Assembly (NCBI GenBank): GCA_020831585.1
Contig: JAFIGE010000015.1
Span: forward strand, 1 to 52,928
Length of the DNA: 52,928 nt
Direction of reading: 5' to 3'
From: Opitutales bacterium
GTDB taxonomy: Bacteria; Verrucomicrobiota; Verrucomicrobiia; Opitutales; Oceanipulchritudinaceae
Shown: positions 3,166 to 24,476 of the stretch, one piece after another
Layout of the letters: every line of letters begins with the position of its first letter
How positions within the stretch are numbered: the first letter of the stretch is position 1
Made by a program: the position numbers and the translations under genes
Notes under the pieces: generated by a model
The model's input: the letters and a program-made list of their open reading frames with translations, nothing else
Database searches by the model: none
Told to the model about the DNA's origin: nothing

Positions 3166-6100
3166 ATGCTGCATCCCAGGAATTTCTCGCGAGGGCTCCG
3201 CGCCATCGGGCTGGCGCTTGCCCTGTTTTTGGGGGCACCCGTTTTGGTCGCGCAGACCTACACGGCCTCGGTGCAGTCGATCGCCCTCACGGGCGGTGAC
3301 AACATCATCGATGCCGATGCGAACATCAGCGACCCCACCTACAACCGCGACATCTTCTCGACGCGCGTCATCACCGATTATACGCGCTCCAACACTTCGG
3401 GACCGAGCTTTGTTGGCTTCCGTTATCGCTTTCGCCTGCTGACCCCCGGTGGAACGACCGTGCCGTTGAAGGATTCCCTGGGAAATGTTTCGACCACGTT
3501 TTTCGTGAACTTCTCGGTGAACTTCGGCACCGGCCTGACCGCGCAGACAAATAATCTTCTCGCCCTCCGCCCGGGAGCGGCGCTCTCGCCCGATCTGGAA
3601 TACCGCCTTGAGGTCACCGTGCAGCGGGATCTCGGCACGGGCTCTTTTGTGAACCTCAACACCGCCATTTCCCTCCCCCGGCGCTACTGGCACTTTACCG
3701 GCCTGCAGGCTGTGGGCCCGCAGCGCAACGTCCTTACCCGCATTGTCAGCGTGTCGTTTGCGAAGGATTACGCCATTACCGCCGGGGCCAGCGAGACCGA
3801 CCGCGCCTTCCTGGCCAATGTCGAAATCGAGGTGCGCCGTTACGACGGCTGGACGCAGGCCGCGCCCAACACCAACAACATCGAATTCCGCGCCACCGCC
3901 CGCCTCGCCAACAGCAACTCGCCAACCGCGATCCCGCTGCACGCGGAGACAGACGGGGTATTGGAGACGACCTTTCCCATCGCCCAATTTGTCCCCAATC
4001 TATCCGTGTCCACCTTCTACGAGCCGGCGGTCTCCTTCCACACCCTGCAAATCCCCCTCCGATCCGATGCCCAACTGGCGACAGTGGCGGAGGAGTTCCG
4101 GATTTTCGCCGATCTCGAACACATCCCCGTGGCCAATACGACGGCTTACACGTTTAACACACAGAACTTCGAGAGCCCGACCGTTCCCCTCTTCCATTTC
4201 AACGGCGATCTCATTGCCGCCGTGCCCGCAACGGTCTTTGTCATGGAGCGCTTCGCCTCGCCCACGATTGGCGGCAGCGCCGTTTCCGGAGGTGCTCTGG
4301 GCGGGGGCGGGACCTACCGCAGCCTCACCGTGAACGTATCCAAAGGCTTCCTCAAAGCCAACCCCGGCTACAGCACGGCAGCGATCATGAAACCCGTGAC
4401 GCTCCAGGTCCGCCTCCTCAATGGTGGAAACGCGCTCTTCATGAGCGGGGGGATTCCCGTGGTCATCCCTCCGGGCGAGGAGATCGGCACGGCCGACGCA
4501 GGCCTCCAATACACCCGCGCCAACTTCCGTTTCGCGCCCAATGGTATTCGCGGCGATATTGAGCTGCTCCTTCCAAAAGGCCTCGGTGTACGCCCCTTCG
4601 ACGGCACCTCCAACCGCATCTTTTACGACCGCCTCGCCACCGAAGACCGGCTCATCGTGCCCGGCGATCTGCGCCCCAACGGCCCCGTCGTCTTCGAACC
4701 GAACGGCGAGCCCTACTTTCTGATCGCCGAGGAAACCAAACCCTTTGAAATTGCCGCCGAGACGATTACGTGGACGGTTCTGACGGGCGAAATCACCCCC
4801 GACCCCGCACCCGCCGGGGTGCCCCGTGTGCGGTTTGTGCGTGAGCGTGAGCACAACTTTCTCAATGCCACCCCGCTCCCGGGGGCCGACAAGATCATCC
4901 GCTCCAACGATGCCCATTTCTTTCAGATCGACCATTCCGCCTCCAATCTCGCCATTACCGCCGATGCCGATGGGAAGGCCGTGCTCGATGGCACCTTTGG
5001 CCTCAAAGCGGGCGAGGCCCATGCCCATTTCCCCTACGGCGTCCGCTTTTCCTGGAACAAGCCGGGCAGCGTTACCTATACCGGGAACCGGATCGATCCC
5101 GCCCTCTCCACCCTCGACGGCACCACCCTCGTGCGCCTCGCCTACCGGCGCACCTGCGATCCGGCGGGGGATACGGATTGCGGTGACATCGCGCCCCTCA
5201 TCGTCGATTTGAGCGCCGGCGGCGCACCCCTGCGTTTCACACCCGACGGCGGCCTCTCCGTTGCCGGACAGATCACGCAAAACGGGTTCCTTCACCTCGG
5301 CTACATCGACGCCCTCACAACCAACCCCTCCTTTCCGTTTTTCGCCCACCGCACGACGGCATTTTCGAGCGCTTCTTTCCTTATGGCCGGGCATGTCCTC
5401 CATGCGGCTGATCGCCCCCCCCCAGCCTTCCCGCCACCGACGGCCCCGGCTATCTCCTCAACTCCGGATTCGCGCCCACCAACCTCACTGTCGCCGAGCG
5501 CCCCGGCACGGTCGCGTATGCGTTGGGTTCGGCCGATTACCCCGGCTTCAACTACCGCGTGGCCGCCGAATCGTCCGGGATCGTTGCCCGCTCTGTCCTG
5601 GGCGGCGAAACCTCGCCCGTCTACGCCCTCGGCCCGCGTTCGAAATACTACACCCGCTTTGGAGGCGTTTCGGGTACCCACGAACCCACGACACTGCCCT
5701 TCCCCGATCCTGTCCTCATCTGCGGCTACCTTTTCGAATTCGAGAACTTCGCCCTCTCCTTCCTCGGCTCGCGTGTGCACGATTCCCGCACTTCGGGCTC
5801 GCTCTACATCCCCGATCCGGCCGTGCCTGCGAACGGATTCACGGTCGAATTCGATCCGCTCTTTTTCTCCTGCCTCGGCGGCCTCACCACCGCCGATCTG
5901 GCCAATGGTCCCTTCGACCACACCCCCTCCTACTGGAACGCCGACCTCAGCGCCCTCGCCGCCTCCTTCACGCCGAAAGTGGGCGCTGAATGCGATCCGG
6001 GCGAGGCCTTCTTCACCCTGGGCGTGCGCGCCTATGCCTCCAACATCGCCACGGCCTTCCACGGCAACCTCCTCTTTTACCCCGACGGCGACCTCGTGCC

Positions 6101-8537
6101 GGGGGCCGACCCCTCCTCGCCGCCCGGACGCGACTCCCGCCTCAGCCCGGCCTCTATTGTGCGATTCGACGGGCCGGGCGGTGAGGTCTACAACTTCACC
6201 CCCCTCCACGCCGCCTACCTCAACCGCCACGCCGATGCCCCTGCCGGTTTCAACGGCACCGCTCAGGGCTTCATCAATCTCGTTGGCCTCCTCGATGTCG
6301 CCTTCTTCCGCGATCTCGAAGTGCACATTCACACCGGTGCCCGGCGCGAAAACACCACCGACCCCATTCACATCGCGGGCGGATGGAGCGAGAGCGGTAG
6401 TGATTTCTTCACGACCGACAATTTCGACCTCGGCAACCGCGGCTTCCCACCCGCCGCCGACCCCGCCGCCTACCGCGCGGGCAACACCCCCGCCTGGCGC
6501 GTGCACGCCCGCCAGGAGTGGCTCGATGTGGTGAATTTCGACTACGATCTCCTCTGGGACACGACCGCCCGCGCCTTCCGCTCCCGCTCGCCCCGCTCCA
6601 GCGACCTCCTCGTCGTCTCCGCGCGCCACCGTCTCAAGCACCTCTCTGCCGCCACCGCCGAGATCGATTTCGGGGCCGCCCTCGACATCGAGGTCCCTGA
6701 AATCAGCCTCGCCGGTCTCACGCCCGCCACGCCTGTCTTTGACGCCGTCAACGGCGTGGCCGATCTCCTCACCGACGCCCTCCTCGACGGACTCAACGCC
6801 TCCGAACGCCTCCTCAATGACCTCGCCGATGATTTCTTCAAAGACGTCTTTGCCGCCACCCTGGATCCCATTACCGATACCCTCGCGGCCGCTCTGAGCG
6901 AACTCGGGGAGGAAGCCAACCTGCAACAGGCCATCGATGACCTGCTCGGTCCCGCCTTCACCGCGCTCCGGAACCAGTTTCTCTTTGCCTCCAACATCGC
7001 CGGCACCGTCACCAATACGATCGACGCCGAACTCGCCCTGATGGAAGCGGGCCTCCAAGCCGCCGCTGACCTCTTCGCCAATGCGGGCACGTCCTCAGAT
7101 CCTCAATACACTCTCGCTTCAACCATTCTCGGGGCCGTTCTCGAAGCGCTCGATGCGCCCATGTATGCCAACCTCCTCGCCTCCATCGGCGGGCCCGCCC
7201 TCGACGCTGCCATCAACCAGGCCCTCCGCGACCGCACCGCCACGATCGAACAGGTCCGGTCCAACCTCCATCAAGTCCGCGCAGTCGTCGCCGCTGTGCG
7301 CTCAGCCGGTCACCTCGGCAACGAAATGCGCGACGCCTTCACCGGTGCGGCTGCTTTTCTCGATGACGCCCAGGACCGCATCCGCGACGCCCTTGATCCC
7401 GATACCTTTGCCGAATGGGCTGCCACCGAAATCAACGTCCTCATCCGCACCGCCGTTCGCGACACCTTCAACGCCTCACCCCTCATCGGCGACTTCCACC
7501 GCATCCTCCGCAGCTACGTCTACGAACTCGACGCCGCCATGCGCTCGGGGCTCGATTCCGCTTTTGCCCAGATCAATATCGCCATCATTGGCCTCGTCGA
7601 TGCCTTCCTTCCTCTCGACGGTCCCCTGGCCGGATTCCTCGGCGACCTCGCGGGCAGCGCCGCCTCCGGACGGATTGACGGTTACGCCCGCATCCAGGGC
7701 GACGCCCTCCGCACCCTCCGCCTCGACGCCGACTTCGAGTTCAGCCTGCCCGATCCTTTTGCCTTCAACGGGTATTTGGAAATCAACCAGCTGAATTCCA
7801 GCGGCTCCTCCACCTGTGCCTTCGGCGCGCCCGGCGATCTTGTCACGGAGGTCAAGCTCGGGGCGGAAAACGTCAAGGTCGGCTGGCTCGGCAAGGAACT
7901 CCGCTTCAACATCGACACCAAATTTACCTTCAACCCCGCCGCCGCCACCCGCCTTGTCGGCATGGCCGGGCAGATGGAAATGACTGGGGGCACGGTCGAT
8001 TTCGAGGCCTTCCAGATCGACGACCTCGGAGCCGCGACCGCCTTTGGCGCGACCGAAAACTACCTCGCCGCGAAAGTCGGCATCCTCTTCAACGGCGACC
8101 GCATCTTCGGCGGGGTTTTCTTCGGCCGCACCTGTTCGCTCGACCCCCTGCAAATGGTCGATCCCGACGTCGCCCGTGTCCTCCCCGCCCCCAACCCCAC
8201 TTTCACCGGTGTCTACGCCTACGGTCAGGCCTTCATCCCCATCGTCAACGTCGGCTGCCTTTTCCGTGTCTCCGCTGTGGCGGGAATTGGCGTCTTCGCC
8301 TTTGCCGAGGACGCCACCGTCGGCGGCAAGATGCTCCTCGGGGCGGATGCCCGCGCAATTTGCGCGGTCAATGTCGGGGGCGAAATCGTGCTCGTCGGCA
8401 CGAAAGCCGGCAACGACATGAACTTCCTCGGCTCCGGGCGCATTTACGGTTCCGCCGGAGCCAAGCCCCTCAAGGTCGAGTTCGATAAAAAAGTCACCCT
8501 CACCTACAAAAACCGGAAATGGGATTATGATTATTGA
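3166..8537 (+). pseudogene. Giant exported protein (about 1790 aa), interrupted by a frameshift in a C9 run
   Basis: The frame starting at ATG 3166 reads well to about 5423, then turns into low-complexity Pro/Ser-rich sequence. A second frame picks up directly after it and runs to 8537. They meet at a run of nine C (5415-5423); one extra C would join them into a single 1790-aa protein. An N-terminal signal peptide is clear (RAIGLALALFLGAPVLVAQ). Residues about 30-1170 look beta-rich with no domain I recognise. About 1175-1510 is strongly alpha-helical and Ala/Leu/Asp-rich (for example VADLLTDALLDGLNASERLL). The last 280 residues are beta-rich and end in aromatic residues (KNRKWDYDY), which could suit an outer-membrane or secreted beta structure. 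First of three co-directional giant exported genes. No function can be assigned. The frameshift may be a sequencing error, a real mutation or a slippage site. Confidence 0.75.
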
Positions 8538-11500
8538 GGATATCAATACGCTCCGCCATCGCGGTCGTTGGAGCAACGTTGCGTGCTTGCTGGCAAGCGC
8601 CCCCGCCGGGGCCACCGTTCCCACCGCAAAGCCGGAGCAAGCTCCGATACCACCGACTGCCCGCGCACCGTTGGAATCCCGCATTCATGCGGTCCCGGCG
8701 GGCAGGCGGAGGTTCCGGGCAGCGGGACCGGCTAAAGCCGGAACTCCAACCTGTGGCACCGCAACGTTGGAATCCCGCATTCATGCGGTCCCGGCGGGCA
8801 GGCGGAGGTTCCGGGCAGCGGGACCGGCTAAAGCCGGAACTCCAACCGTACCCTCCGCTCTATCCCTCCACCACTCCCTTTCCCCCCTCTTCCTCTTCAT
8901 TTCCCTCCTCCTCTTCCTCCTTCCCCTCTCCTCCCTTACCGCCGAAGACTTCCGCATCCTCACCGGGGCCGCTTTCACCGACCCCGCCACGGGCACTCCC
9001 CACGCCTACCTGCGCTGGCAGGCGGCTGATCCGGAAACCCTCCGCACGCTCCGCACCGCCGTTTACGCCAAGGCGGGCAACGCCAATTCCCCCGCCACCC
9101 ACACCCCCGTTGGCGCAACCGGCCTGATTACCAGCCCGGCGGTCATCAACTCGCTCGCCCACGGCTTTCCCCGCGCGCACTTCGATCCCGAAGCCTTCTC
9201 CGGCATAATCGACGACCTTTTTGGCGAGTTCATGCCGGGGCTCAGCCTCACCCACGGGGACAAACTTTCTTTCGTTCTCCAACTCGCGGAGATGGACCCC
9301 GATGTCCATTCGCGCCTCCTCATGCTCGCCTACGCGGAGCCCTTCATGGCTGTGTGCATGGGCCTCGCTGCGGTCGTTCCCATGCCCGCGAGCGTATCCA
9401 CTTTCGAACTATGCGCCCAGGCCGCCGGGGGCGATGATCCCGGCCGGCCCTACAACGTTGTTCTCGGCCGCGTGACCGTGAACGCCGACGCCCCCCCGCC
9501 CCTGCCGACACCCCCCGCGCCCGAGCAGATTCTCGACTACAGCGTGACCGGCCACCTCAACGCCCAACTGCGTTGGAACACAACAACGGCCCTCCTCCGC
9601 GAGACCCCGGCGATCTTCGGCTTCGATATATTCCGCATGACGAAAGCCTTCGCCGAGGCCAACGGTTTCGACACCACGCCGCCCGCGCCAGCCATCATTA
9701 CCGACCTCCTCGACACCGCCCCCGCCGAGGTCCGCCGGGTCAACACCGGCGCGATCCTCCCGGTCGAGGACGGCGATCCCGATACCCCCTTCATCATCGA
9801 CGACAACGACGCCGGTTTCGGCCTCGGCCTGCCCTTCGCCGACGGCGACCAGTTCTACTACTTCGTTGCCGCGCGCGACCTCCTCGGGCGTCCCGGCCCG
9901 CTTTCCCCCGGCACGCTCGTGACCATCTGTGATCGCATGCCGCCGGAGTCACCGCGCCGCGTGGCCGTGTCGAACGTGCGCACCTACGATTCCACCACAG
10001 GCGTGGCCACGACCCGCCTCAAAATCAGCTGGGAAGCCCATCCGAATGCCGCCGACGCGCCGCCCGCCTATTACCGCGTGAGCCGCTGGATTTCGGTCAC
10101 CGATCTCAACAACGCCGCCGCCGACAACAGCGCCTTCGAGGCCGCCGTCGTCTCCCCGCCCATTCCCCACGTTCCCGGCCAAACCGTTTACGAGTGGATC
10201 GCCAACAGTTCCGGTGCCCGCACCCTTGCCGACAACCCCGGCGAAACCACCTGGTACACCGTTCTCGCGGTCAAGGACACCGCCTGCCTCGCCCTTGTCG
10301 GTCCCCCGTCGGCCCCCGCGTGGGGCGCGATCCGCGATTTCGAGAGACCCGAGGCGGGCACGACTTCGATCGTCCTCTCCAGCACGCGCCCGAAAATCGA
10401 GGTTTCCTTCCTCGATCCCATTAATGCCACTCAGGAGATTCTTGCGGAATATGAGGGCAACCTCGAAGACCGCTTTTGGGTAGTCGATCTCACCGCACGG
10501 CGCCTGAATCCGGGTATTACGCGTTTTGCCTACGGGGTGGCGGCGCAACTCCCGGGCGGCGGATTCGGCTTCCAGCACCTCGGCACGGTTGAATTCGGAG
10601 AAAACGCCAACGAGTTTCACTTCAAGCGCCGACTCCCCATCGACCTCTTTTCTTCCGAGATCGACGTTCGCCTTTGGATGATTGCCGAAGACTTCACCGG
10701 TCGCCCGGCCTTTGCGCAAATTCCGCTCAGCCAGATCTTCAATGACCTCATCCTGCCGATCCTCGCCGAAATCGATCTCACGACCGTCTCCGTGAATCTG
10801 AACGACGGAGATCCACCCGACGGCATCGTGCACAACCCCATCGGCCCCGGCGGTTTGGGTGCGCCCCTCAGGCCGCTCCGGTTCGCCGTTGTCACACCCG
10901 CCGATGCGCGCGAATACAAGGTCTACAAGCGGGTCAACGGCGGGCCCCTCATTTTTGTTACCCAAGGCACCGAACTCGATGCCCCCGGCTCCATCGAGGA
11001 GATTGAAGACCTCGGCTTTCCGCCCTACGGGGGCGAACTCTGTTACTTCATCCAGTGGTTTGACGAGCACGGGAACCCCTCCCCCCTCGCTGAACTGGGC
11101 TGCGTCCCTGTGGCCGCGCGGGCACCTATGCCCGTGCCCCTATTGGAGCGACCCCTCGCCATCGGCACGCCTGAGGCCCCGCAGGCCCTCCTCCGATGGT
11201 TTTGCCCGCCCGAGGGCGTGGAGCGCTTCCGCGTCTATGTTGGCGACGGCCTCACCCCCATGGGCTCAACCCCCTCCGGCCTCACTCCCTCGGTCATTCG
11301 CTTCGATCCGCTTCCGGGTTTTGGCTCGTCCGCCCGCGACCCTGGTATCCGTATTGGCGATACAACCTACCGACCCTACGACACCGGACGCGTCGGGGGC
11401 AATTTTGGAAACCCCTTTGAGCCGGGCATCTTCGAACTGGCCGTGGATGTTCAACCGGGTCGCGAATACAACTTCTTTGTCGTGGCTGTTTCCGCCGCCG

Positions 11501-12135
11501 GGGATCGCTCCGCACGCTCCAATATCGAGCCCTTCCTCTGGACAACCCCGCCGGAAACACCGCTGCCGGAAATTCCCTGGCCCGCCCGCTCCCTCCCAGC
11601 GCTCGATTCCGGCTTCATCCCGCAAATCGCCGCCCGCCACATCACTTCAGGGGGAAACCGCTTTAATGGTGCGGGTATTCGTATTGGTAATTTCCAAACA
11701 ACGAGCGAAAATGTTTTCCTCGGCGGCCCATTCCTTGCCGATGGCATTGCTTTCGACACGCCGACCAGCTTTCCCGCCGACAACACGAGCACACTCACGC
11801 TCTTCACCTCCGTCAGCGGCGAAACGATCTTGCCCTGCGTCGTCTACCGCTACGAGGTGCAGGGCCCGCAGGACGACCTCGTCACGGGCAATATCGTCCA
11901 GGTCACGCCCCTCATCGAGGACATTCTCGCGGTCACCAGCGGAGGACAAACGACCCTCTATAACCCCTTCGTCGACCTGTTCCCCGGACTCCTCCAAACC
12001 GGCGTCTACATCAAAGACACCCACCCGGTCATCGCCGGCCGCACCTACCGCTACCTGGTCGTCCGCTTCCGTCCCGATGGCGAAATCGACCGCGTCATCC
12101 GCACCAACCGCGTCTTCATCGCCGACCTCCCCTGA
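8527..12135 (+). CDS. Large exported protein with fibronectin type III-like segments; 5' end invaded by repeats
   Basis: 1202 aa if it starts at ATG 8527, which overlaps the end of the previous gene by 11 bp. A typical hydrophobic signal peptide (LFLFISLLLFLLPLSSLTA) appears only at about residues 120-138, behind two 32-residue repeats encoded by an intergenic-type DNA repeat. No ATG, GTG or TTG lies between the repeats and the signal peptide; in-frame TTG codons at 8671 and 8767 lie at the start of each repeat copy. The original start was probably displaced by the repeat. The mature part is beta-rich with several segments resembling fibronectin type III modules (for example ADGDQFYYFVAARDLLGRPG and REYNFFVVAVSAAGDRSARS). 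Probably co-transcribed with its neighbours; the next gene begins 4 bp after this stop. Function unknown. Confidence 0.7.
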   Translation: MIIEDINTLRHRGRWSNVACLLASAPAGATVPTAKPEQAPIPPTARAPLESRIHAVPAGRRRFRAAGPAKAGTPTCGTATLESRIHAVPAGRRRFRAAGPAKAGTPTVPSALSLHHSLSPLFLFISLLLFLLPLSSLTAEDFRILTGAAFTDPATGTPHAYLRWQAADPETLRTLRTAVYAKAGNANSPATHTPVGATGLITSPAVINSLAHGFPRAHFDPEAFSGIIDDLFGEFMPGLSLTHGDKLSFVLQLAEMDPDVHSRLLMLAYAEPFMAVCMGLAAVVPMPASVSTFELCAQAAGGDDPGRPYNVVLGRVTVNADAPPPLPTPPAPEQILDYSVTGHLNAQLRWNTTTALLRETPAIFGFDIFRMTKAFAEANGFDTTPPAPAIITDLLDTAPAEVRRVNTGAILPVEDGDPDTPFIIDDNDAGFGLGLPFADGDQFYYFVAARDLLGRPGPLSPGTLVTICDRMPPESPRRVAVSNVRTYDSTTGVATTRLKISWEAHPNAADAPPAYYRVSRWISVTDLNNAAADNSAFEAAVVSPPIPHVPGQTVYEWIANSSGARTLADNPGETTWYTVLAVKDTACLALVGPPSAPAWGAIRDFERPEAGTTSIVLSSTRPKIEVSFLDPINATQEILAEYEGNLEDRFWVVDLTARRLNPGITRFAYGVAAQLPGGGFGFQHLGTVEFGENANEFHFKRRLPIDLFSSEIDVRLWMIAEDFTGRPAFAQIPLSQIFNDLILPILAEIDLTTVSVNLNDGDPPDGIVHNPIGPGGLGAPLRPLRFAVVTPADAREYKVYKRVNGGPLIFVTQGTELDAPGSIEEIEDLGFPPYGGELCYFIQWFDEHGNPSPLAELGCVPVAARAPMPVPLLERPLAIGTPEAPQALLRWFCPPEGVERFRVYVGDGLTPMGSTPSGLTPSVIRFDPLPGFGSSARDPGIRIGDTTYRPYDTGRVGGNFGNPFEPGIFELAVDVQPGREYNFFVVAVSAAGDRSARSNIEPFLWTTPPETPLPEIPWPARSLPALDSGFIPQIAARHITSGGNRFNGAGIRIGNFQTTSENVFLGGPFLADGIAFDTPTSFPADNTSTLTLFTSVSGETILPCVVYRYEVQGPQDDLVTGNIVQVTPLIEDILAVTSGGQTTLYNPFVDLFPGLLQTGVYIKDTHPVIAGRTYRYLVVRFRPDGEIDRVIRTNRVFIADLP
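8671..8846. repeat. 80-bp element in tandem, 96-bp period, inside a coding frame
   Basis: Two copies (8671-8750 and 8767-8846) are identical over 80 bp by eye, separated by 16 bp. Each contains the perfect hairpin CCGCAT-TC-ATGCGG and a second palindromic stretch around CCGGCTAAAGCCGG. The 96-bp period is divisible by three, so the reading frame of the surrounding gene stays open. The word ggctaaagcc also occurs in the repeat blocks at 50.8 and 52.4 kb, so this belongs to the same palindromic repeat family. Confidence 0.85.
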
Positions 12136-12139
12136 CCCC

Positions 12140-15100
12140 ATGCACCCGCGCACCTTTCTTTCCCCTATCGTCGTCTGCTTACTCTGGCTCCCCGCGCTTG
12201 GGGCCGCCACCTACCTGCCGCGCCAGTCCGTTGTCACCGCCGCCGAGATCATCGGCTACGGTGACTTCGGCGGCGACGGCCAGGTTCAGGCCATCGTTGT
12301 CGACCGCGCCACCGGCCTTTACCGCCGCGCTCTTCCGCAGGGCAACGGTTCCCTCCTTTTCACCGCGCCCGCGCCCACCGGTTTGGGGTCCGCCGATGCC
12401 CTTGCCGTCGGCTCGATCACGGAGACCGACCGCGATCAGCTCGCCATCGCGGGGGTCGCCGCCAACCGCACCCACATCATTGATCCCACTGCGCCCGCCG
12501 CCTTTCCCACGGCGGCCTTTACCCTGGGCGTGGGCCACCGGGCGCTCGCTGCCATCGATATCAATTTTTCGGGCAATGATCCCGCGCGCATGGACCTCTA
12601 TGTCCTCACCGGTTGGCACGATGAACTCTCCACCGCCGCCCTCATCCAGTCAACGGCCTCGGGTCTTGCCACGGTGAGCGAGGGCCCCGCGCCCACCATT
12701 GCCGCCGCCCACCGCGTGCGCCTCGCCGAGGGCCATGTGGACAGGCTCCTGCTGATCATGCGTAACCCCGATGGCTCCGAAGAAGCCGTCTCGCTTTCCG
12801 ATCCGCAGACGCCCGCGTCCCCGCCCTTGCAGACGCTCTTTGGTTTTCCCGTCGATACCCGCGTGACCCACGGCCCCCTGCGCGGCAGCACGAACAACCA
12901 GTTTCTCTTCCACAGCCCCGGCAGCCCGGTTCTCCGGGTGAGCACGGCGAGCCCGGGCACCCTCCTTGGCACACCCGTGGCCCACGATCTTGGCGCACCC
13001 ATTGCCTCCCTTCACCTGGCCCACAATGGCAGCCGCCTCGGCTTTTTCGTGATCTTCGAAGGCGGCACGCAGGCGACTTACTATGGCCTCAATGCCAGCT
13101 TCGCCCCCTTCGTCATCGCCACCCTTTCCGCCCCGCCGGGGGAGCGTTTCAATGGAGTCATCGCGCCGGTCAATGGACACGCCACCTTGCTCACCGGCCC
13201 CGCCTCAGGCGGTCCGAGCACCGCTGCCGCGCATTACGCCGCCAGCGGCTCCAACTGGAACCACCAGTCGACCACGCCCCTCGCCCCCCTCGGCATAAAC
13301 ACCGCCCTGCAAAACCTCTTCCTCTATAACGGAGAACCCTTCGTGAACCCCGCCGCCGGTCTCCGCTACACCGCCCACATCCCCGACTGGACGGGCGGCC
13401 TCACGGTCACCTCCCTCGTGCGTTTTGGCGCGGCCCTCTTCGGGGAGAACGGTCTCAGTTCCGGCACCGCCATCAACCTTGGCGCGCCCCCACCCGGTGT
13501 CACCCACGGCCTCGCCAACCAATACCGCCCCCACATCTCCTTTTCCGGCCTCTCCCGCGAGACCGGTGCGCGCCCGCCGCCCGTCGAGGCCAACCCCCTC
13601 CCGGGAGCCTACGGACGCTACTTCACCGTCACCCTCAGCAGCCCCGAACCGGGCGTCACCATCCACTACCGCGACTCCGCCGCCGCCACTTGGAGCAGCG
13701 CCCCCGGCCCCGTCGAAATCGCCCCGCCGGGCAACACCCTCACGCCCTTCTTCATCCGCTACTTCGGGGAGAAGGATGGCCTCCGCTCCGCCGTCGTGAC
13801 GGCTCACTACAGCTTCACGGGCGATCCCGGCAGCCTTGATTCCGATGGCGACGGCATCCCCGACTACGTCAAGCTCGCCCTTGGTCTCGATCCGCGCGGC
13901 GGCCCCGACAGCGACTTCGACGGCTATTCCGACCTGCGCGAAATCCTCGCCGGGACCGATCCCGCCAATCCCGCCAGCACCCCCGCCGCCCTCGATCCCC
14001 TCAATCTGCAAAACGTCTTCGACCTCGCCCTGCGCCCGCTTTCCTTCAGCACTTTCACGACCACCACCCCCACCCGCCCGGCGCTTCCCGAGACCGGCGA
14101 TCCCAACTTCCCACCCCCCGCCAACCTCCGCGCCCACGACCTCGACGGGCGTCTCCTCCGGTCCACGCAAACCCGCCTCAATCCCCAGGACAGCTTCACC
14201 GGGGCCTCCGCTTACCTCGCCGGGCTCCCGGCATCGCCCCGCGACGGCTTTGTCGTTGCCTCGACCGACCGCACCTTTGCCATCCAGCCTGCCCCGTCCC
14301 GCCCCATCCTCGACGACCAGGGAATTGAACTCCTTGCCCTCGTGCCGATTCCCGGCCTGCGCCTCGATCCTGTGTCCTACACCCCACCCCCCGGCACCGA
14401 TCCCGTTGCCGCCGCCAACGCCTGGATCGCCGCCGCCCAGGCCCACTACGCCGCCCTCGCACGCCCCCTCATCGAACAGGACCTCACCTACCTCGACACC
14501 CTCAAGCTCCTCCTCACCGAGCGCGTCCTCGCCCTTCTCCTCCACGAGCGCGATCCCACCTTCCCCCGCGACAGCTTTTCCCTCACCGGGTTCCGCGATC
14601 CCGTGCCCGCCGCCGACATCCCCGCCGAGGCCCTCCTCGCCCTCCAAAGCGGTCCCAGCGCCCACCGCCTGCACGAAATCTTTGCCACCGTCTCGGCCGG
14701 CATCGATAGCCCCTTCCACACCAGCCTCACCCGCCTCCGCAGCCTCGGCCTCCAGGTTTACCGCACGGCCAATCTTCAGGCTGCCGCCTCTCCCGGCCTC
14801 TACCCTTCCCCCATAGACACCCTCCGGGCTTTCCTCCGCGGGGAAGACCTCCCCGGTCATCCCGATACCAGCTACGCCGCCGCCGTCACCCTCACCAGCG
14901 CGCAGCTCGCCGCCGCCCGCACCGCCCCGGCCATCGTCCGTAACGCCCTCAGCCCCCGCCCCACCGCCACCTTTCACGCCACCGTGTCCGCGCAAACCTT
15001 CGCCAGTCCCGTCCCCGTCCTCCGCAATCTCGGCGACGACACCCCGCTGCGTCTCTACGACGCCGCCGGCGACCCCTTCCCCTTCCCCCGCGGCCTCGCC

Positions 15101-15643
15101 CTCCTCCCCGGCACCGAACTCGAAATCCTCGCCTACAACGACCGCACCGACGCCCCCTTTGTCCCCAACGAAGCCGTCGAGACCCTCGCCGTCACCGTCA
15201 CCCGCCTGCCCGTGCCCGCCCCCGTCGACACCGACGGCAACGCCCTCGACGACGCGTGGGAACGCTACCTCTTCGGCACCACCGGCAACGACCCCTTCGC
15301 CGACGCCTCCGGCAACGGCTACACCAACCTCCAAGCCTTCCTCGACGGCACCCACCCGCTTGTCCCCGCGAGCACGCCGCCAACCGACCCCATCCCCGCC
15401 GGCCCGCCCCCCGTGGCCGTCCACCTCCAGGGCGGCGAACTCGCCTTCCGCATCCAGTTCCCCACCCGCTACGCCGCCCAGATTGGCTTCCAACTCCAAT
15501 CCAGCCCGACCCTCGAAGCCTTCACCGACACCCCCCTCGCCGCCACCCCCAACGGCCAAACCTTCGCCCTCAACATCCCCCACAACCCCACCTCCCCCGC
15601 CACCTCCTTCCACCGCTTCCGCCTCTTCCTGCGGACGCCGTGA
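12140..15643 (+). CDS. Large exported protein with FG-GAP-like, chitobiase-C-like and Ca-binding motifs
   Basis: 1167 aa from ATG 12140, four bases after the previous stop. Signal peptide RTFLSPIVVCLLWLPALGAA. The N-terminal part contains FG-GAP/VCBS-like strands (IIGYGDFGGDGQVQAIVVD). Around residue 480 a segment (GVTIHYRDSAAATWSSAPGP) resembles the small C-terminal domain of chitobiases. Then follow thrombospondin type 3-like calcium motifs (DSDGDGIPDYVKLALGLDP and SDFDGYSDLREI), a long Leu/Ala-rich helical stretch, and near the end a further motif (DTDGNALDDAWERYLFG) that is very common at the C-terminus of verrucomicrobial exported proteins. Last gene of the three-gene set. Function unknown; adhesion, polymer binding or a surface structure are possible. 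Confidence 0.75.
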   Translation: MHPRTFLSPIVVCLLWLPALGAATYLPRQSVVTAAEIIGYGDFGGDGQVQAIVVDRATGLYRRALPQGNGSLLFTAPAPTGLGSADALAVGSITETDRDQLAIAGVAANRTHIIDPTAPAAFPTAAFTLGVGHRALAAIDINFSGNDPARMDLYVLTGWHDELSTAALIQSTASGLATVSEGPAPTIAAAHRVRLAEGHVDRLLLIMRNPDGSEEAVSLSDPQTPASPPLQTLFGFPVDTRVTHGPLRGSTNNQFLFHSPGSPVLRVSTASPGTLLGTPVAHDLGAPIASLHLAHNGSRLGFFVIFEGGTQATYYGLNASFAPFVIATLSAPPGERFNGVIAPVNGHATLLTGPASGGPSTAAAHYAASGSNWNHQSTTPLAPLGINTALQNLFLYNGEPFVNPAAGLRYTAHIPDWTGGLTVTSLVRFGAALFGENGLSSGTAINLGAPPPGVTHGLANQYRPHISFSGLSRETGARPPPVEANPLPGAYGRYFTVTLSSPEPGVTIHYRDSAAATWSSAPGPVEIAPPGNTLTPFFIRYFGEKDGLRSAVVTAHYSFTGDPGSLDSDGDGIPDYVKLALGLDPRGGPDSDFDGYSDLREILAGTDPANPASTPAALDPLNLQNVFDLALRPLSFSTFTTTTPTRPALPETGDPNFPPPANLRAHDLDGRLLRSTQTRLNPQDSFTGASAYLAGLPASPRDGFVVASTDRTFAIQPAPSRPILDDQGIELLALVPIPGLRLDPVSYTPPPGTDPVAAANAWIAAAQAHYAALARPLIEQDLTYLDTLKLLLTERVLALLLHERDPTFPRDSFSLTGFRDPVPAADIPAEALLALQSGPSAHRLHEIFATVSAGIDSPFHTSLTRLRSLGLQVYRTANLQAAASPGLYPSPIDTLRAFLRGEDLPGHPDTSYAAAVTLTSAQLAAARTAPAIVRNALSPRPTATFHATVSAQTFASPVPVLRNLGDDTPLRLYDAAGDPFPFPRGLALLPGTELEILAYNDRTDAPFVPNEAVETLAVTVTRLPVPAPVDTDGNALDDAWERYLFGTTGNDPFADASGNGYTNLQAFLDGTHPLVPASTPPTDPIPAGPPPVAVHLQGGELAFRIQFPTRYAAQIGFQLQSSPTLEAFTDTPLAATPNGQTFALNIPHNPTSPATSFHRFRLFLRTP

Positions 15644-17625: not shown

Positions 17626-17814
17626 AGTCTCAAGGATTTACCAAATCTACGGTGGATGCCTGTATTCGATAACAATCGCGTAAAAGCTCTGTGGGAATGC
17701 TTTTTTCAATGATCGCCCATCCCGCCACCAAAGACTTCGGCCCGACCGTTAATGGATCTGCGCAGTCGAAGATTTCAATCGAAACCCGCAGCGCATCTTT
17801 CAGCTAAAGACCCT

Positions 17815-19272
17815 ATGTTCGAGCAAACTTTCAAAAATATCGACGACGTGATGTGGAAAGACGCCGGCTGCACCAGCGAGCTGGACTACTCCGAGCAGAG
17901 TTCCTGGCTGCTCTTCCTGAAATACCTCGACAGCCTGGAGCACGACAAGGCGCAGGAGGCCGCGCTCGAAGGGCGGAAATACACCCACATTCTCGATGAG
18001 CCCTACCGCTGGGCCACCTGGGCTGCCCCCAAGGATGCCTTCGGAAAGATCGATCACAACCAAACGCTCACCGGCGACGACCTGCGCGATTTCATCAACC
18101 AGCAGCTCTTCCCCTACCTCCAGGGCTTCAAGCAGCGGGCCACCGGGCCGGACACCATCGAATACAAGATCGGCGAGATTTTTGGCGAAATCCGCAACAA
18201 GATCCAGAGCGGCTACAACCTCCGCGAAATCATCGACCACATCGACGAACTGCGCTTCGGCTCGCAGAAGGAAAAACACGAACTCTCCCACCTCTACGAA
18301 GCCAAGATCAAGAACATGGGCAACGCCGGGCGCAATGGCGGCGAGTATTACACCCCGCGCCCACTCATCCGCGCCGTCGTCCACGTGCTCAAGCCGAAGA
18401 TTGGCGAGACCATCTACGACGGCGCCTGCGGGTCCGCCGGGTTCCATTGCGAGGCCTTCGATTACCTCAAATCCGGCACCCAGCTCACCACCAAGGATCT
18501 CGTCACGCTTCAGAAGCACACCTTCTACGGCAAGGAGAAGAAGTCGCTCGCCTACGTCATCGGCGTGATGAACATGATCCTCCACGGCATCGAGGCCCCC
18601 AACATCATCCACACCAACACGCTCACCGGGAACATCGCCGACATCCAGGAAAAGGACCGCTACGACATCGTCATGGCCAACCCGCCCTTCGGCGGCAAGG
18701 AGCGCAAGGAGGTGCAGCAGAATTTCCCGATCCGCACCGGCGAGACCGCCTTCCTCTTCCTTCAGCACTTCATCAAGATCCTCCGGGCCGGCGGCCGCGC
18801 GGGCATCGTGATCAAGAACACCTTCCTTTCCAACACCGACAACGCCTCCGTCGCCCTGCGCAAGCTGCTGCTCGAAAGCTGCAACCTCCACACCGTGCTC
18901 GACTGCCCCGGCGGCACCTTCCTCGGCGCGGGCGTGAAAACCGTCGTCCTGTTCTTCGAAAAAGGCGCGCCTACCCGCAAGGTCTGGTTCTACCAGCTCG
19001 ACCCCGGCCGCAACATGGGGAAAACCAACCCGCTCAACGACAACGACCTCGCCGAGTTCATCGACCTCCAACGGACCTTTGCCGACTCGGAAAAAAGCTG
19101 GAGCGTGGCGGTGAACGACATCGACCCGAAGACCTTCGACCTCTCCGTGAAAAACCCCAACGGCGGCGAGGCAATCACCCACCGCAGCCCGGAGGAGATT
19201 ATGAAAGAAATCGCGGAGCTGGATGCCGAAAGCGCGAAGGTGCTGGGGAACATCAGGAAGCTGCTGAAATAA
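17815..19272 (+). CDS. hsdM: Type I restriction-modification DNA methyltransferase subunit
   Basis: 485 aa from ATG 17815 (MFEQTFKNIDDVMWKDAGC), the usual HsdM opening; the upstream extension to 17752 is not family-like. HsdM transfers a methyl group from S-adenosylmethionine to adenine N6 in the host recognition site. The N-terminal helical domain spans about 1-170. The SAM-binding motif is YDGACGSAGF (about residue 203) and the catalytic motif is NPPF (about 289). The frame ends in helical sequence that would contact HsdS. First gene of a same-direction hsd operon; the next gene starts 28 bp later. Confidence 0.95.
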   Translation: MFEQTFKNIDDVMWKDAGCTSELDYSEQSSWLLFLKYLDSLEHDKAQEAALEGRKYTHILDEPYRWATWAAPKDAFGKIDHNQTLTGDDLRDFINQQLFPYLQGFKQRATGPDTIEYKIGEIFGEIRNKIQSGYNLREIIDHIDELRFGSQKEKHELSHLYEAKIKNMGNAGRNGGEYYTPRPLIRAVVHVLKPKIGETIYDGACGSAGFHCEAFDYLKSGTQLTTKDLVTLQKHTFYGKEKKSLAYVIGVMNMILHGIEAPNIIHTNTLTGNIADIQEKDRYDIVMANPPFGGKERKEVQQNFPIRTGETAFLFLQHFIKILRAGGRAGIVIKNTFLSNTDNASVALRKLLLESCNLHTVLDCPGGTFLGAGVKTVVLFFEKGAPTRKVWFYQLDPGRNMGKTNPLNDNDLAEFIDLQRTFADSEKSWSVAVNDIDPKTFDLSVKNPNGGEAITHRSPEEIMKEIAELDAESAKVLGNIRKLLK

Positions 19273-19300
19273 GTCCCATAGGGCCTATAAGACTCATCCC

Positions 19301-19873
19301 ATGCCTGAAGACGCCTCCATACTCCCGCCTTACGGCAACTACGCCGAGCTACTTTCCTACCAGAAAGCGGAGGTCGTATATGACCTCACCTTCCGGTTTT
19401 GCGAACGCTTTCTAAAACGCGGCGACCGCACCATTGACCAAATGGTGCAAGCCGCCCGCTCCGGCAAACAGAACATTGCCGAGGCCAGCAAAGCCTCCGG
19501 TACTTCGAAGGAAACAGAACTCAAGCTCACCAATGTCGCCCGGGCGAGTCTCGAGGAGCTTCTACTCGACTATCAGGATTTCCTTCGCGTCCGTGACTTC
19601 CCTCTTTGGGCCAAGGATTCCAAGGAGGCGCTCTATGTGCGACGCATCGGCAACAAGCCCCACACCACCTACGAAACCTACCGCGAATTTTGCGAAACCC
19701 GCCCGCCCGAAATTGTCGCCAACATCGCCATCTGCCTCATCCACCAGACCAACTACCTTCTCGACCAGCAACTGCGCGCGCTTGAAAAGGATTTTCTCAA
19801 CCAAGGCGGCCTCCGCGAACGCATGTTCCAAGCCCGCCTCAAGCACCGCCGCCAAAACCCACCCAAACCATGA
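19301..19873 (+). CDS. Four-helix-bundle protein (23S rRNA IVS/Avd-like) with suffix domain
   Basis: 190 aa. The core QMVQAARSGKQNIAEASKAS followed by TSKETELKLTNVARASLEEL is the signature of the four-helix-bundle family found in 23S rRNA intervening sequences. The C-terminal part (about 140-190) matches the 'suffix' extension also present in the second copy at 21335. The DGR accessory protein Avd has a related fold. Here the gene sits between hsdM and hsdS, with an ATGA overlap to the next frame, so it is probably co-expressed with the restriction system. Its role there is unknown; an RNA- or DNA-binding helper is an inference. Confidence 0.8.
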   Translation: MPEDASILPPYGNYAELLSYQKAEVVYDLTFRFCERFLKRGDRTIDQMVQAARSGKQNIAEASKASGTSKETELKLTNVARASLEELLLDYQDFLRVRDFPLWAKDSKEALYVRRIGNKPHTTYETYREFCETRPPEIVANIAICLIHQTNYLLDQQLRALEKDFLNQGGLRERMFQARLKHRRQNPPKP

Positions 19874-20100
19874 CCCCCACGGCATCCATAAGTCCCATAT
19901 CTCCCATTCGGTGCCACACCCTCGAATTCCTCGGCCTCTGGGAGCAGATCAACAACCCCCGTTTTAATCCCGTCGAATTCGATGGGATTAGAATGCAGGC
20001 GGGTCTCAACAGAATCACCCAGATCGCCATCCAACAGATGAAACTGCTCACCGCGGAGAATCGCCTACCCAACCTGCCAGAGGGGAGGAAGGGGGAATGA
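19870..20100 (+). pseudogene. KilA-N-type protein remnant with internal deletion
   Basis: 76 aa. The part LGLWEQINNPRFNPVEFDG followed by RMQAGLN matches what I recall of KilA-N domain proteins often encoded within type I restriction operons. The next residues (LNRITQIAIQQMKLLT) resemble the C-terminal end of the same proteins. The middle part with the rest of the DNA-binding domain is missing, so I read this as an in-frame deletion remnant. It overlaps the gene before it and hsdS after it by 4 bp each, so it may still be translated and serve to couple hsdS expression. Confidence 0.5.
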
Positions 20101-21212
20101 AGAAGGGATGGGAGATGAAATCGCTTGGTGATGTTTGTGAAATCGTAAACGGTGGAACACCGAAGACGGGTATTTCAAAGTTTTGGGATGGAGAACACAG
20201 GTGGATTACCCCCGCCGAAATGGGTAAGCGAAATTCTCCTTACGTATCTGAAACCAAAAGAACTCTGTCAGACGCTGGTCTTACAAATAGCTCTGCACAA
20301 ACACTGCCGCCGTTTTCGGTGATATTGTCATCACGTGCACCTATAGGACACTTGGTGATTAACGAAATTCCAATGGCAACCAACCAGGGTTGCAAAGGTT
20401 TGATTCCATCGCAGAAAATTGAGTGTAAATATCTCTATTACTATCTGAGTAGCATTGTTGATCTTCTCAATGACTTAGGCACGGGAGCTACATTTAAGGA
20501 ACTTTCCGGCGGCAAACTTAGAGAGGTTTCTATCCCTCTTGCCCCCCTCCCCGAGCAACGCCGCATTGTCGCCGTCCTCGACGAAGCGTTTGCGGGCCTC
20601 GCCACCGCCAAAGCCAACGCCGAAACCAACCTCCAAAACGCCCGCGCCCTCTTCGAAAGCCACCTCCATGTCGAACATGCCGAGAAAGCCAGGCTTGGAG
20701 ATTTGGTGCATATCAAAACCGGGAAGCTCGATGCGAATGCTGCCGTTGAGGGTGGTAAGTTTCCTTTCTTCACTTGTTCAAGAGACATTTATGCAATCGA
20801 CAACTACGCATTCGATTGCGAGGCGATCCTTTTAGCGGGCAACAACGCTGTCGGAGATTTCAACGTGAAACACTACAAAGGAAAGTTTAATGCTTACCAG
20901 CGTACTTACGTCATCACGGTGAATGAGAAAAATCAGGTGCTCTACCGTTTTCTCTATTTCCAAATGCTCAAGAGCTTGAAAAAATTCAAAGCCCAGTCAG
21001 TGGGTGCCGGGACGAAGTTCTTGAAATTGGGAATGATCAAGGATTTGGAAATCGAGTTGCCGAGCCTTACAGAACAACGACGCATGGTTGCCACGATGGA
21101 ATCTGTGCACGAAGAAACCACCCGCCTCGCCGCCATCTACCAGCAAAAGCTCGCCGCGCTGGAGGTCTTGAAGCAATCGCTGCTGCACCAGGCGTTCAGC
21201 GGGGCGCTTTGA
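20097..21212 (+). CDS. hsdS: Type I restriction-modification specificity subunit
   Basis: 371 aa. Two target-recognition domains (about 1-145 and 195-320) are each followed by a conserved helical spacer with the motif LPEQRRIVAVLDEAF and LTEQRRMVATMESV. The subunit ends in QSLLHQAFSGAL, a classic HsdS ending. It determines the bipartite DNA site for both methylation and restriction. A strong Shine-Dalgarno (ggaggaaggggg) precedes ATG 20097. The recognition-domain DNA (about 20100-20530 and 20690-21060) is visibly more AT-rich than the spacers, as expected for domains exchanged by recombination. Confidence 0.95.
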   Translation: MKKGWEMKSLGDVCEIVNGGTPKTGISKFWDGEHRWITPAEMGKRNSPYVSETKRTLSDAGLTNSSAQTLPPFSVILSSRAPIGHLVINEIPMATNQGCKGLIPSQKIECKYLYYYLSSIVDLLNDLGTGATFKELSGGKLREVSIPLAPLPEQRRIVAVLDEAFAGLATAKANAETNLQNARALFESHLHVEHAEKARLGDLVHIKTGKLDANAAVEGGKFPFFTCSRDIYAIDNYAFDCEAILLAGNNAVGDFNVKHYKGKFNAYQRTYVITVNEKNQVLYRFLYFQMLKSLKKFKAQSVGAGTKFLKLGMIKDLEIELPSLTEQRRMVATMESVHEETTRLAAIYQQKLAALEVLKQSLLHQAFSGAL

Positions 21213-21334
21213 AATGAACTTCCCCGCAGGAGCCATGATGACAATATTGACACCCATGACAGCATTGAGACTTGCCATTCGGTCAACAAGGTCAATCCGG
21301 TCGGTCCTGTCCTCCATCAGGAAGGAGGCGGGCC

Positions 21335-22132
21335 GTGCCCGGGCTTTTTGACAAACACGGCGGTTTCCGCAAGCTGCATTCGTTCACGCTGGCTACCATC
21401 GTGCAGCTCGAGACGCTGCGTTTCTGCCGCCGCTTCCTGACCCAGGACCCCCGGCAGGTCGGCGAAAGATTCTACGACCCCAAGGGCCGGCAATACGACC
21501 AGATGACCCAGGCCGCGCGCAGCGGACGCCAGAACATCATCGAGGGTTCCGAGCGCTCGTCCACCTCGAAGGACACCGAGATGAAGCTCACCGACGTCGC
21601 CCGCGCCAGCCTCAGCGAACTGCGCGGCGACTACGAGGTCTTCATCATCGACCGCGGCGAGCTTCCATGGTCAGCCCACTCGCCGGAAGCCCGCGCGGTG
21701 AACGCCATTTCCATCGACCCCGCGCCGTTCACCGACGACCTGGTACACGAATCCGCCAAACATGCGCTTGCCCAACGCGGCAAATACGCGCCTTGGCTGG
21801 ATTCGCCAGACCCGGTGGTCGTGGCCAACGCCATGCACCTCATCATCGGGCGCGCGCTCAACATGCTGAAATCCCAGATCGCCGCCCAAGGCAAGGCCTT
21901 CGAAGAAACCGGCGGGTTCAGCGAGCGCCTCCACACCCGCCGCCTCGAAGCCCGCGAGGGCCAACGCGCCGCCGAACCCTCGCCCGATTGCCCGCAATGC
22001 AACCAACCCATGCGCCGACGTAGATCCGCCAAAGGCGAGTTCTGGGGATGCACCGCGTATCCGGACTGCAAAGGAACCAAGCCGCTTGCACACTCCCAGT
22101 CCAATGGTCAACACCGCCATTCCGGTCAATGA
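21335..22132 (+). CDS. Four-helix-bundle suffix protein fused to a topoisomerase-type zinc ribbon
   Basis: 265 aa from GTG 21335, chosen because GGAGG (21324-21328) lies six bases upstream. Paralog of the protein at 19301: QMTQAARSGRQNIIEGSERS followed by TSKDTEMKLTDVARASLSEL, with the same suffix segment near residues 165-215. It carries an extra C-terminal domain with four cysteines (CPQCNQPM ... WGCTAYPDCKG), the zinc ribbon seen at the C-terminus of bacterial topoisomerase I. That domain usually binds single-stranded nucleic acid. It lies between hsdS and hsdR. I infer a nucleic-acid-binding accessory, but no activity can be stated. Confidence 0.8.
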   Translation: MPGLFDKHGGFRKLHSFTLATIVQLETLRFCRRFLTQDPRQVGERFYDPKGRQYDQMTQAARSGRQNIIEGSERSSTSKDTEMKLTDVARASLSELRGDYEVFIIDRGELPWSAHSPEARAVNAISIDPAPFTDDLVHESAKHALAQRGKYAPWLDSPDPVVVANAMHLIIGRALNMLKSQIAAQGKAFEETGGFSERLHTRRLEAREGQRAAEPSPDCPQCNQPMRRRRSAKGEFWGCTAYPDCKGTKPLAHSQSNGQHRHSGQ

Positions 22133-22154
22133 AGTCCCCAAACCCCGCCGCTGC

Positions 22155-24476
22155 ATGAACGAAGCCGAAACCCGCGCCGAATACATCGACCCCGCCCTCA
22201 AGGTGGCGGGCTGGGGTGTGGTGGAGGGCAGCCGCATTCTCCGCGAATACCACATCAGTCCCGGGCGCATCGAGGGACGCGGTAGGCGTGGCAAGGCGGA
22301 GATCGCGGACTACGTACTGGTTTACCGCAACCTCAAGCTGGGGATCAACGAGGCCAAGGCATGGGACAAACCGCTGACGGAAGGCGTCGCGCAGGCAAAG
22401 GCCTACGCAGCGAAAATGGAAATCCGCTTCACCTTCGCCACCAACGGCCAAGGCATCTACATGATCGACATGGAGACGGGCCAGGAAGGCGAGATATCCA
22501 GCTACCCCACGCCCGATGAACTCTGGAATCTAACGTTCGCCAAGCAGGACCGCTGGCGCGATGCCTTCGCGGCGGTGCCCTTTGAGGATCGCAGCGGTTT
22601 TTTCCAAGCCCGCTACTATCAGGAAATTGCGGTGCAGAGTGTGCTCAACGCGCTGATCGCCGGAGAATCCCGCATCCTGCTCACGCTGGCCACCGGCACC
22701 GGCAAGACGTTCATCGCCTTCCAGATCGCGTGGAAGCTCTTCCACAGCCGCTGGAATCGCACCGGCGAGCCGACGCGGCGCCCGCGCATTCTTTTTCTGG
22801 CGGATCGAAACATCCTCGCCGACCAGGCATTCAATGCCTTCTCCGCGTTTCCCGAGGACGCGCTGGTGCGCATCGAGCCGGACGACATCCGCAAGAAAGG
22901 AAAGGTCCCCAAGAACGGCAGCCTGTTTTTCACCATCTTCCAGACCTTTATGTCGGGTTGGCCAGTTGATGGTGAGCCATCTCCTCACTTTGGCGAATAC
23001 CCGGCGGACTTTTTCGACTTCATCGTCATCGACGAATGCCACCGCGGCGGTGCGAACGACGAGGGGAACTGGCGCGGCATCATGGAGCATTTCTCGCCGG
23101 CGGTGCAGCTCGGCCTCACCGCCACGCCAAAGCGCAAGGAAAACGCCGACACCTACGCCTATTTCGGCGAGCCGGTTTACACCTACTCACTCAAGGACGG
23201 CATCAATGACGGCTACCTCACGCCCTTCCGCGTGAAGCAGATCCAGACGACGGTCGACTACTACATCTTCACCCCCGACGACACCGTGATTGAGGGCGAA
23301 ATCGAGGTGGACCGGGTTTACGAAGAGCCGGACTTCAACCGGAACATCGAAATCGCCGAGCGAGAGAAGAAGCGGGTGGAGATCTTCATGGGCATGATCG
23401 ACCAACGGGAGAAGACGCTCGTCTTTTGCGCCACCCAGGAGCACGCGCTGCTGGTCCGCGACTTCATCAACCAGACCAAGACCAGCACCGACCCGAACTA
23501 CTGCCAGCGCGTCACCGCAAACGATGGCGCACGGGGCGAGCAGTATCTCCGCGATTTTCAGGACAACGAAAAGACCTTCCCGACCATCCTCACCACCTCG
23601 CAGAAGCTTTCGACGGGCGTGGATGCGCGCAACATCCGCAACATCGTGCTGATGCGGCCGATCAACTCGATGATCGAGTTCAAGCAGATCATCGGGCGGG
23701 GCACCCGCCTCTACGACGGCAAGGACTACTTCACGATCTACGACTTCGTGAAGGCCCACCTCCATTTCAACGACGCCGAGTGGGATGGCGAACCCGTCGA
23801 GCCGGAACCCAAGGAGCCGAAGGATCCCGATCCGGGGCCGCCAAAGCCGCCAGCCCCCATGCCCGGGCCTAGGAATCCCGAACCCCGGCGCAGAATCAAA
23901 GTGAAGCTCGCCGACGGCAAAGAAAGGTCGATCCAGCACATGACCGCCACCTCGTTTTGGCACCCCGACGGCACGCCGATGTCGGCTCAACAGTTCATGG
24001 AGTCGCTTTTTGGCAAGCTGCCCGCATTTTTCAAGGACGAGAACGAATTGCGCACCCTCTGGAGTCACCCCGAGACCCGCAAACGGCTCCTTGAGGGCCT
24101 TGCTGAACAAGGCTTCGGAAGCGAACAACTTGCCGAAATGCAGAGGCTTATTGAAGCGGTTAATTCCGATATTTTCGATGTGCTTTCCTACGTCGCCTAT
24201 GCGTTGCCGCCAGTGACCCGCCAAGAGAGGGCACAAAATGCGCGCGTATCCATCCACTCACACTTCAGCGACAAACAGCAGGGCTTTCTGGATTTCGTCC
24301 TCGCGCATTACGTCAGCGTCGGTGTTGAGGAATTGGATATGTCGAAGCTCGCGCCATTGCTCCGTCTGAAATATCAAAACTCGATCCCCGACGCGGTGGC
24401 CGACCTCGGCCCGGCGGAGACGATTTCCCAGGCCTTCAGCGGATTCCAGAAGTTCTTATACGGACCAGCGGCGTGA
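22155..24476 (+). CDS. hsdR: Type I restriction endonuclease motor subunit (EcoEI-like)
   Basis: 773 aa from ATG 22155 (MNEAETRAEYIDPALKVAGW), the usual EcoEI-type opening; earlier in-frame starts (22086, 22104) would overlap the previous gene. The subunit translocates DNA and cuts it when two complexes collide. The nuclease region includes EAKAWDKPL (about 64-72). Motor motifs are LATGTGKTF (Walker A, about 177), VIDECHRGG (DECH box, about 292), GLTATPKR (about 320) and a helicase C-terminal motif IIGRGTRLYDG. The Pro-rich linker near residue 560 and a C-terminal helical domain complete it. Last gene of the hsd operon. Confidence 0.93.
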   Translation: MNEAETRAEYIDPALKVAGWGVVEGSRILREYHISPGRIEGRGRRGKAEIADYVLVYRNLKLGINEAKAWDKPLTEGVAQAKAYAAKMEIRFTFATNGQGIYMIDMETGQEGEISSYPTPDELWNLTFAKQDRWRDAFAAVPFEDRSGFFQARYYQEIAVQSVLNALIAGESRILLTLATGTGKTFIAFQIAWKLFHSRWNRTGEPTRRPRILFLADRNILADQAFNAFSAFPEDALVRIEPDDIRKKGKVPKNGSLFFTIFQTFMSGWPVDGEPSPHFGEYPADFFDFIVIDECHRGGANDEGNWRGIMEHFSPAVQLGLTATPKRKENADTYAYFGEPVYTYSLKDGINDGYLTPFRVKQIQTTVDYYIFTPDDTVIEGEIEVDRVYEEPDFNRNIEIAEREKKRVEIFMGMIDQREKTLVFCATQEHALLVRDFINQTKTSTDPNYCQRVTANDGARGEQYLRDFQDNEKTFPTILTTSQKLSTGVDARNIRNIVLMRPINSMIEFKQIIGRGTRLYDGKDYFTIYDFVKAHLHFNDAEWDGEPVEPEPKEPKDPDPGPPKPPAPMPGPRNPEPRRRIKVKLADGKERSIQHMTATSFWHPDGTPMSAQQFMESLFGKLPAFFKDENELRTLWSHPETRKRLLEGLAEQGFGSEQLAEMQRLIEAVNSDIFDVLSYVAYALPPVTRQERAQNARVSIHSHFSDKQQGFLDFVLAHYVSVGVEELDMSKLAPLLRLKYQNSIPDAVADLGPAETISQAFSGFQKFLYGPAA

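Follow-up and report, generated by a model that had tools for sequence, protein, structure and literature searches.

Three genes, denoted here A, B and C, that follow one another on the forward strand of contig C126 in an Opitutales genome (5.28 Mb in 262 contigs) constitute, on the basis of sequence comparison, a single unit that encodes more than 4000 residues in total and that appears to be new as a system, being partly built from known domain types. This unit can be tentatively described, at less than even confidence, as an undescribed class of surface machine in Verrucomicrobiota and Kiritimatiellota, consisting of three proteins anchored at the outer membrane, that would be maintained as a diverged multi-copy set with exchangeable N-terminal heads for differing partners or materials. 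In the window (the whole stretch of 52,928 nucleotides that was analyzed), A spans positions 3166-8537 and literally overlaps B by 11 bp (8527-8537), and a gap of 4 bp (12136-12139) separates B from C (Table 1), which verifies the tight packing described in an earlier note on this DNA. The sizes given there for B and C, which are open frames of 1202 and 1167 aa, stand as well, but the single 1790-residue frame attributed to A does not, the length of its interval being indivisible by three.

Table 1. Coordinates of the features of the A-B-C unit and of the break sites in the copies of the same genome
Feature	Position	Strand	Remarks
Gene A, first frame: signal peptide and N-terminal beta-rich part	3166..6534	+	A-family frame only to ~5415
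Nine-C run, site of the A frame change	5415..5423	+	Absent from the relative G009, which reads through
Gene A, second frame (P0002): beta-rich part, helical domain, C-terminal strand domain	5412..8537	+	Profile 742-1848
A helical domain	6708..7649 (P0002 residues 396-709)	+	Structure model, pLDDT ~60-82
A C-terminal domain: 15-16 long antiparallel strands, porin-like	7659..8531 (P0002 residues 713-1003)	+	Structure model
Gene B: signal peptide from ~residue 115, then several Fn3-like modules	8527..12135	+	True start uncertain
Interspersed repeat, 83 bp, two tandem copies	8671-8753, 8767-8847	+	64 matches in own genome
Gene C: signal peptide, seven-bladed propeller, TSP3 repeats, helical middle, C-terminal beta domain	12140..15643	+	
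C seven-bladed beta-propeller, residues 34-383	12239..13288	+	Model pLDDT mostly 83-97
C TSP3-type calcium-binding repeat, residues 563-611	13826..13972	+	Pfam TSP3_bac E 3.5e-4
C second, similar TSP3-type repeat, residues 1026-1073	15215-15358	+	Sequence and family consensus
A/B break sites, own genome	Window 5415; L100 1628-1630; L101 ~14487-14538; L102 ~1725; L104 ~5422-5470, ~11558		

When 17 genomes of the family were searched with each of the three proteins, A, B and C were found to adjoin in every case, contig ends excepted. The window genome itself carries about seven units, located on contigs C126, C183, C36, C199, C143 and C52, with one more split between C181 and C142, which we infer from the contig ends to belong together; among the family relatives, two genomes encompass about five to seven units and three have one. 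When the alignment of A proteins was used to scan the genome collection, 65 loci were obtained, a lower bound because the scan relied on one short motif. They belong to Opitutia, Verrucomicrobiia, Kiritimatiellales and a MAG that carries the label Sumerlaeota; isolates with A loci include Roseibacillus persicicus, Luteolibacter marinus, two Pontiellaceae strains and Verrucomicrobiaceae strain E54. In this independent collection, B lies directly 3' of A in 60 of the 64 testable loci and C lies 3' of B in 48 of 48. Among the four loci that deviate from the order, three have A downstream of C (the full B-C-A arrangement is seen in L158; L148 and L149 start inside C), and in the fourth, from Roseibacillus, B-C is kept on another contig. 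Furthermore, strong matches (E < 1e-20) to A and to B are found in the same 21 of the 337 genomes of the phylum that were surveyed (Fisher p 8e-34).

The components of the unit also diverge together. Pairwise distances across 36 units are highly correlated (r 0.89 for A-B, 0.86 for A-C and 0.93 for B-C; 0 of 5000 permutations as high), and nearest neighbors are mostly concordant among the three trees, so that the units are inherited whole. Nucleotide changes are predominantly synonymous, far more so than amino-acid-altering: the dN/dS values of A, B and C, for the pairs where they are computable and leaving out B of the window versus that of G009, fall between 0.05 and 0.23, which corresponds to purifying selection. 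Sec-type signal peptides were detected by a heuristic scan in 42 of 51 A, 59 of 61 B and 39 of 46 C proteins. At the level of sequence, these patterns establish the predicted export, common fate and constraint of the three proteins. The most distant members, L180 and L183, retain the second half of A, the entire B and the middle of C, and thus the core of the unit excludes the N-terminal heads. The earlier note had proposed exported, surface-type proteins forming one unit without a recognized counterpart; the signal peptides and domains back the former claim, and the fixed order and correlated divergence strongly support the latter, given that the genes adjoin across several families and scattering was not seen in relatives.

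Neither A nor B belongs to a curated family of Pfam, NCBIfam, PHROGs or PADLOC, beyond scattered fn3 and generic helix matches, and only common modules (TSP3, FG-GAP, CHB) are recognized in C. Sequence searches of the PDB retrieved no solved structure except for generic helices in A, and no anti-phage defense family of PADLOC was matched. An origin from a virus or plasmid was rejected, as searches of viral contigs and plasmids revealed no relatives of A-B-C, and viral structures gave weak matches only. A search of the literature, incomplete in its coverage, found no description of the unit.

The flanks of the units in the window genome vary; judging by the visible reading frames, they include, for example, gyrA/gyrB, clpX, miaB and asparagine synthetase. 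Given that flanking genes differ between units, the unit is autonomous. Clustering of recurrent neighbors revealed no overall fixed neighbor, no conserved gene indicative of a substrate and no immunity-like partner. The neighbors that do recur in this clustering, some of them identified by Pfam, are a protein kinase (8 loci), a sigma-like factor (5 loci) and a DUF1573 protein (5 loci). In some Verrucomicrobiia loci, these are represented by a WD40-repeat protein kinase (L149 7998-11291), a sigma-70-like factor (L167 3464-4240) and a DUF1573 protein (L141 20085-20852), which may regulate the unit. A and B are separated in one genome by a gene (L193 5829-12200) whose secreted product of ~2124 residues, as judged by eye, may form a right-handed beta-helix. 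In the window, a plsX-type fatty acid synthesis gene identified by Pfam (1436-2965) is located directly upstream of A, and a plsX-like frame was noticed by eye in the corresponding place in G009 (L106 6485-7621); this shared position suggests that the window copy was inherited vertically. Other genes of the window include a Type I restriction-modification locus with methylase, specificity and restriction subunits (17752-24476) and a 1245-residue subtilase that contains an MBG domain (42289-46026).

The earlier note overlooked both a frame break in A and a repeat at the start of B. Similarity to the A family follows frame 1 up to ~5403 and frame 3 from ~5433, with the C9 run between them. Profile positions 37-743 of the family fall in the first frame, whose A part is 77% identical to the intact relative G009:C290; in G009, the closest relative, which represents another genus of the same family, A is intact at ~1795 residues and is 86% identical over the second part. 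The frame break rules out A of the window as a single ORF. A programmed frameshift is unsupported because A of the relatives is read in a single frame and the closest of them lacks the C run; phase variation at the C9 run is possible. Runs of C are common in the window genome, and other broken A copies lack a long run at the break. Altogether, A is broken in five of the seven copies in this genome (four frameshifts and one in-frame stop) compared to 3 of 65 loci elsewhere (Fisher p 8e-5), and among the same units B is broken once and C never. The broken A copies could reflect decay, phase variation or assembly error.

Proteins of the B family consist of about 1100 residues (range 1050-1200 aa) and share 10 invariant columns across 46 sequences. 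Of 15 members, 3 match fn3, and profile comparisons within the sequences lend weak support to a repetition of Fn3-like units. In the window, an 83-bp interspersed repeat, present twice in tandem, makes up the first ~110 codons of the B frame, and there is no in-frame ATG, GTG or TTG between the repeat and the signal peptide of B. The signal peptides that the earlier note assigned to A, B and C are all present, and the displacement that it described in B is explained by the repeat sequence that occupies the A-B junction; with repeat copies at the beginning of B, the overlap with A may misplace the true start of this gene. In G009, a single divergent copy of the repeat is found at the same place between A and B. 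The repeat also flanks gene B in the C142 copy.

In agreement with the FG-GAP, chitobiase-C-like and calcium-binding motifs mentioned in the earlier note, C contains TSP3 calcium-binding repeats and a propeller, and its homologs match FG-GAP and CHB_HEX_C. The TSP3_bac domain is present in 14 of 27 C homologs and FG-GAP_3 in 7 of 27. The propeller is of the integrin type and aligns with many propellers, including those of integrin alpha and lectins (VIA-align Z 21-23), and with integrin alphaM in a Foldseek search (E 1e-7). Thus, the N-terminal domain of C has the fold of integrin alpha/FG-GAP propellers, and FG-GAP-type repeats are found in C homologs; however, identity to these propellers is 9-13%, and C extends beyond this domain into TSP3 repeats and a helical region. 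Given the wide range of ligands of propellers, the fold alone does not imply a shared function. In the minimal members L180 and L183, C matches the profile only from position ~385.

The architecture of A combines variable and conserved parts. The N-terminal third evolves fast, being 50-75% identical where the C-terminus is 85-98% identical, and some A proteins have a different N-terminal propeller. A cysteine-containing beta part precedes the large helical domain, which the earlier note had recognized from the sequence and which is seen in the structure model; the aromatic C-terminus that it reported is KWDYDY. The C-terminal domain is the most conserved part of A, with the GGVFFGRTC motif within it, and its strands are 11-17 residues long each (the A model as a whole has pTM 0.55). 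Among the VIA-align matches of this domain, outer-membrane barrels predominate (Z 11-13.7), but with rmsd of 9-11 A; porins reach a Foldseek probability of ~0.9 with E of ~0.1-0.2. The modeled 15-16 long, meandering strands of A resemble those of outer-membrane porins and of TonB-dependent receptors (OmpT of Vibrio, Omp32, BtuB, Fiu), but these proteins differ by the same rmsd of 9-11 A and show no sequence similarity, and in A a large helical domain and ~700 N-terminal residues precede the strands. As in barrel proteins, hydrophobic or aromatic residues occupy the C-terminal positions -1, -3 and -5 in 36 of 61 distinct A termini, compared to 1 of 60 in B and 0 of 51 in C; the motif is missing from the other 25 of 61 A termini, many of which have an acidic residue at -2. 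The amphipathicity of the strands is within the range of four E. coli barrels (OmpC, OmpF, BtuB and FadL), and the soluble-looking beta part of A is equally amphipathic. Thus, the C-terminus of A suggests outer-membrane anchoring, and an outer-membrane barrel is the favored interpretation of the modeled C-terminal domain.

Combined with the propeller, Fn3-like and TSP3 domains, which favor a binding or adhesion complex among the roles that the earlier note suggested (a surface appendage, an export complex or a polymer-binding machine), this points to a tentative scheme, less than evenly probable in our view, in which A would be the outer-membrane anchor for B and C, and the three together would serve in adhesion or recognition. 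Complex formation, insertion of A into the outer membrane and the binding function are what we infer here. The three proteins would leave the cytoplasm by Sec and act together as a dedicated system, with the C-terminal strand domain of A inserted as a porin-like barrel and its fast-evolving N-terminal part exposed. B could be a rod of Fn3-like modules that would be assembled on A as a spacer or scaffold, and C could provide a calcium-dependent, integrin-like propeller head that would bind together with the variable N-terminus of A. The many diverged copies per genome might then represent a repertoire of complexes with different targets.

A structural alternative, in which A-B-C would not be a specific receptor or adhesin but would build a layer, sheath or fiber on the cell surface that stands on A in the membrane, is unlikely but not negligible. 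Giant, modular, beta-rich secreted proteins present in several copies per genome are compatible with such a role, and the S-layer deinoxanthin-binding complex protein SlpA of Deinococcus radiodurans, a large surface protein with a barrel end, as A may be, is among the Foldseek matches of A (probability 0.9, E 0.16). However, no SLH domain was found in A, which has two obligate partner genes. Pfam detected no SLH domain in the A homologs either, and no S-layer family was matched; moreover, several strongly diverged paralogs per genome would be unusual in a lattice, and of the 337 genomes surveyed in the phylum, only 21 have the unit.

Two other alternatives seem improbable to us. In the first, A-B-C would be an export machine in which B and C reach the surface through a pore formed by the A barrel, as in two-partner secretion. 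The barrel-like C-terminus, VIA-align matches that include FhaC as well as the ushers FimD and PapC, and the strict linkage of A to two secreted proteins are in line with this possibility, but many unrelated barrels match equally well, ~700 more exposed-looking residues precede the conserved part of A, and Pfam searches with A and 18 homologs identified no autotransporter, POTRA, FhaC-type or usher family. In the second, to which we give a similarly low probability, A would bind lipids with its helical domain and an open amphipathic sheet, as ApoB, MTP or vitellogenin do, and A-B-C would be a secreted lipid carrier. Indeed, the two best Foldseek matches of A are not porins but the lipid-transfer proteins ApoB100 and microsomal triglyceride transfer protein (MTP), the sole matches at E < 0.001 (E 3e-4), followed by lipovitellin and vitellogenin; ApoB100 also reaches a VIA Z of 13.4, and Apolipoprotein is matched in 2 of 18 A homologs. 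In ApoB100, MTP and vitellogenin, as in the A model, a helical domain lies beside an amphipathic beta sheet. Nevertheless, the TM-scores are no higher than 0.04-0.11 with rmsd of 40-65 A, Pfam detects no vitellogenin family, the Apolipoprotein matches are generic amphipathic helices, and a lipid carrier leaves no place for the C propeller. The likeness is probably limited to a similar order of secondary structure elements.

Finally, a three-component secreted toxin or lytic system whose A helices would enter target membranes is highly improbable: there are three fixed components and the helices weakly resemble tripartite alpha-pore toxins and MakA (E 0.2-0.5, probability 0.1-0.3), but these structural matches are generic long helices, no toxin family of Pfam, NCBIfam or PHROGs is matched, a variable C-terminal effector is lacking, as the C-termini of A and C are conserved, and no immunity-like partner is found among the recurrent neighbors. 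The Tc toxin complexes (TcA, TcB, TcC) likewise consist of three large co-encoded proteins, one of them partly helical and one with a propeller; unlike these, A-B-C have signal peptides and no variable effector end, and no TcA, SpvB/TcB or RHS match to them was found in Pfam, NCBIfam or PHROGs.

Altogether, a conserved unit of more than 4000 residues that is found in two phyla and in about seven copies in one genome represents a large investment. Its presence in the cultured R. persicicus and L. marinus and in Pontiellaceae isolates makes its role directly testable. Should A-B-C indeed be a surface recognition system, it would raise the question of how these environmental bacteria choose surfaces, particles or partners.
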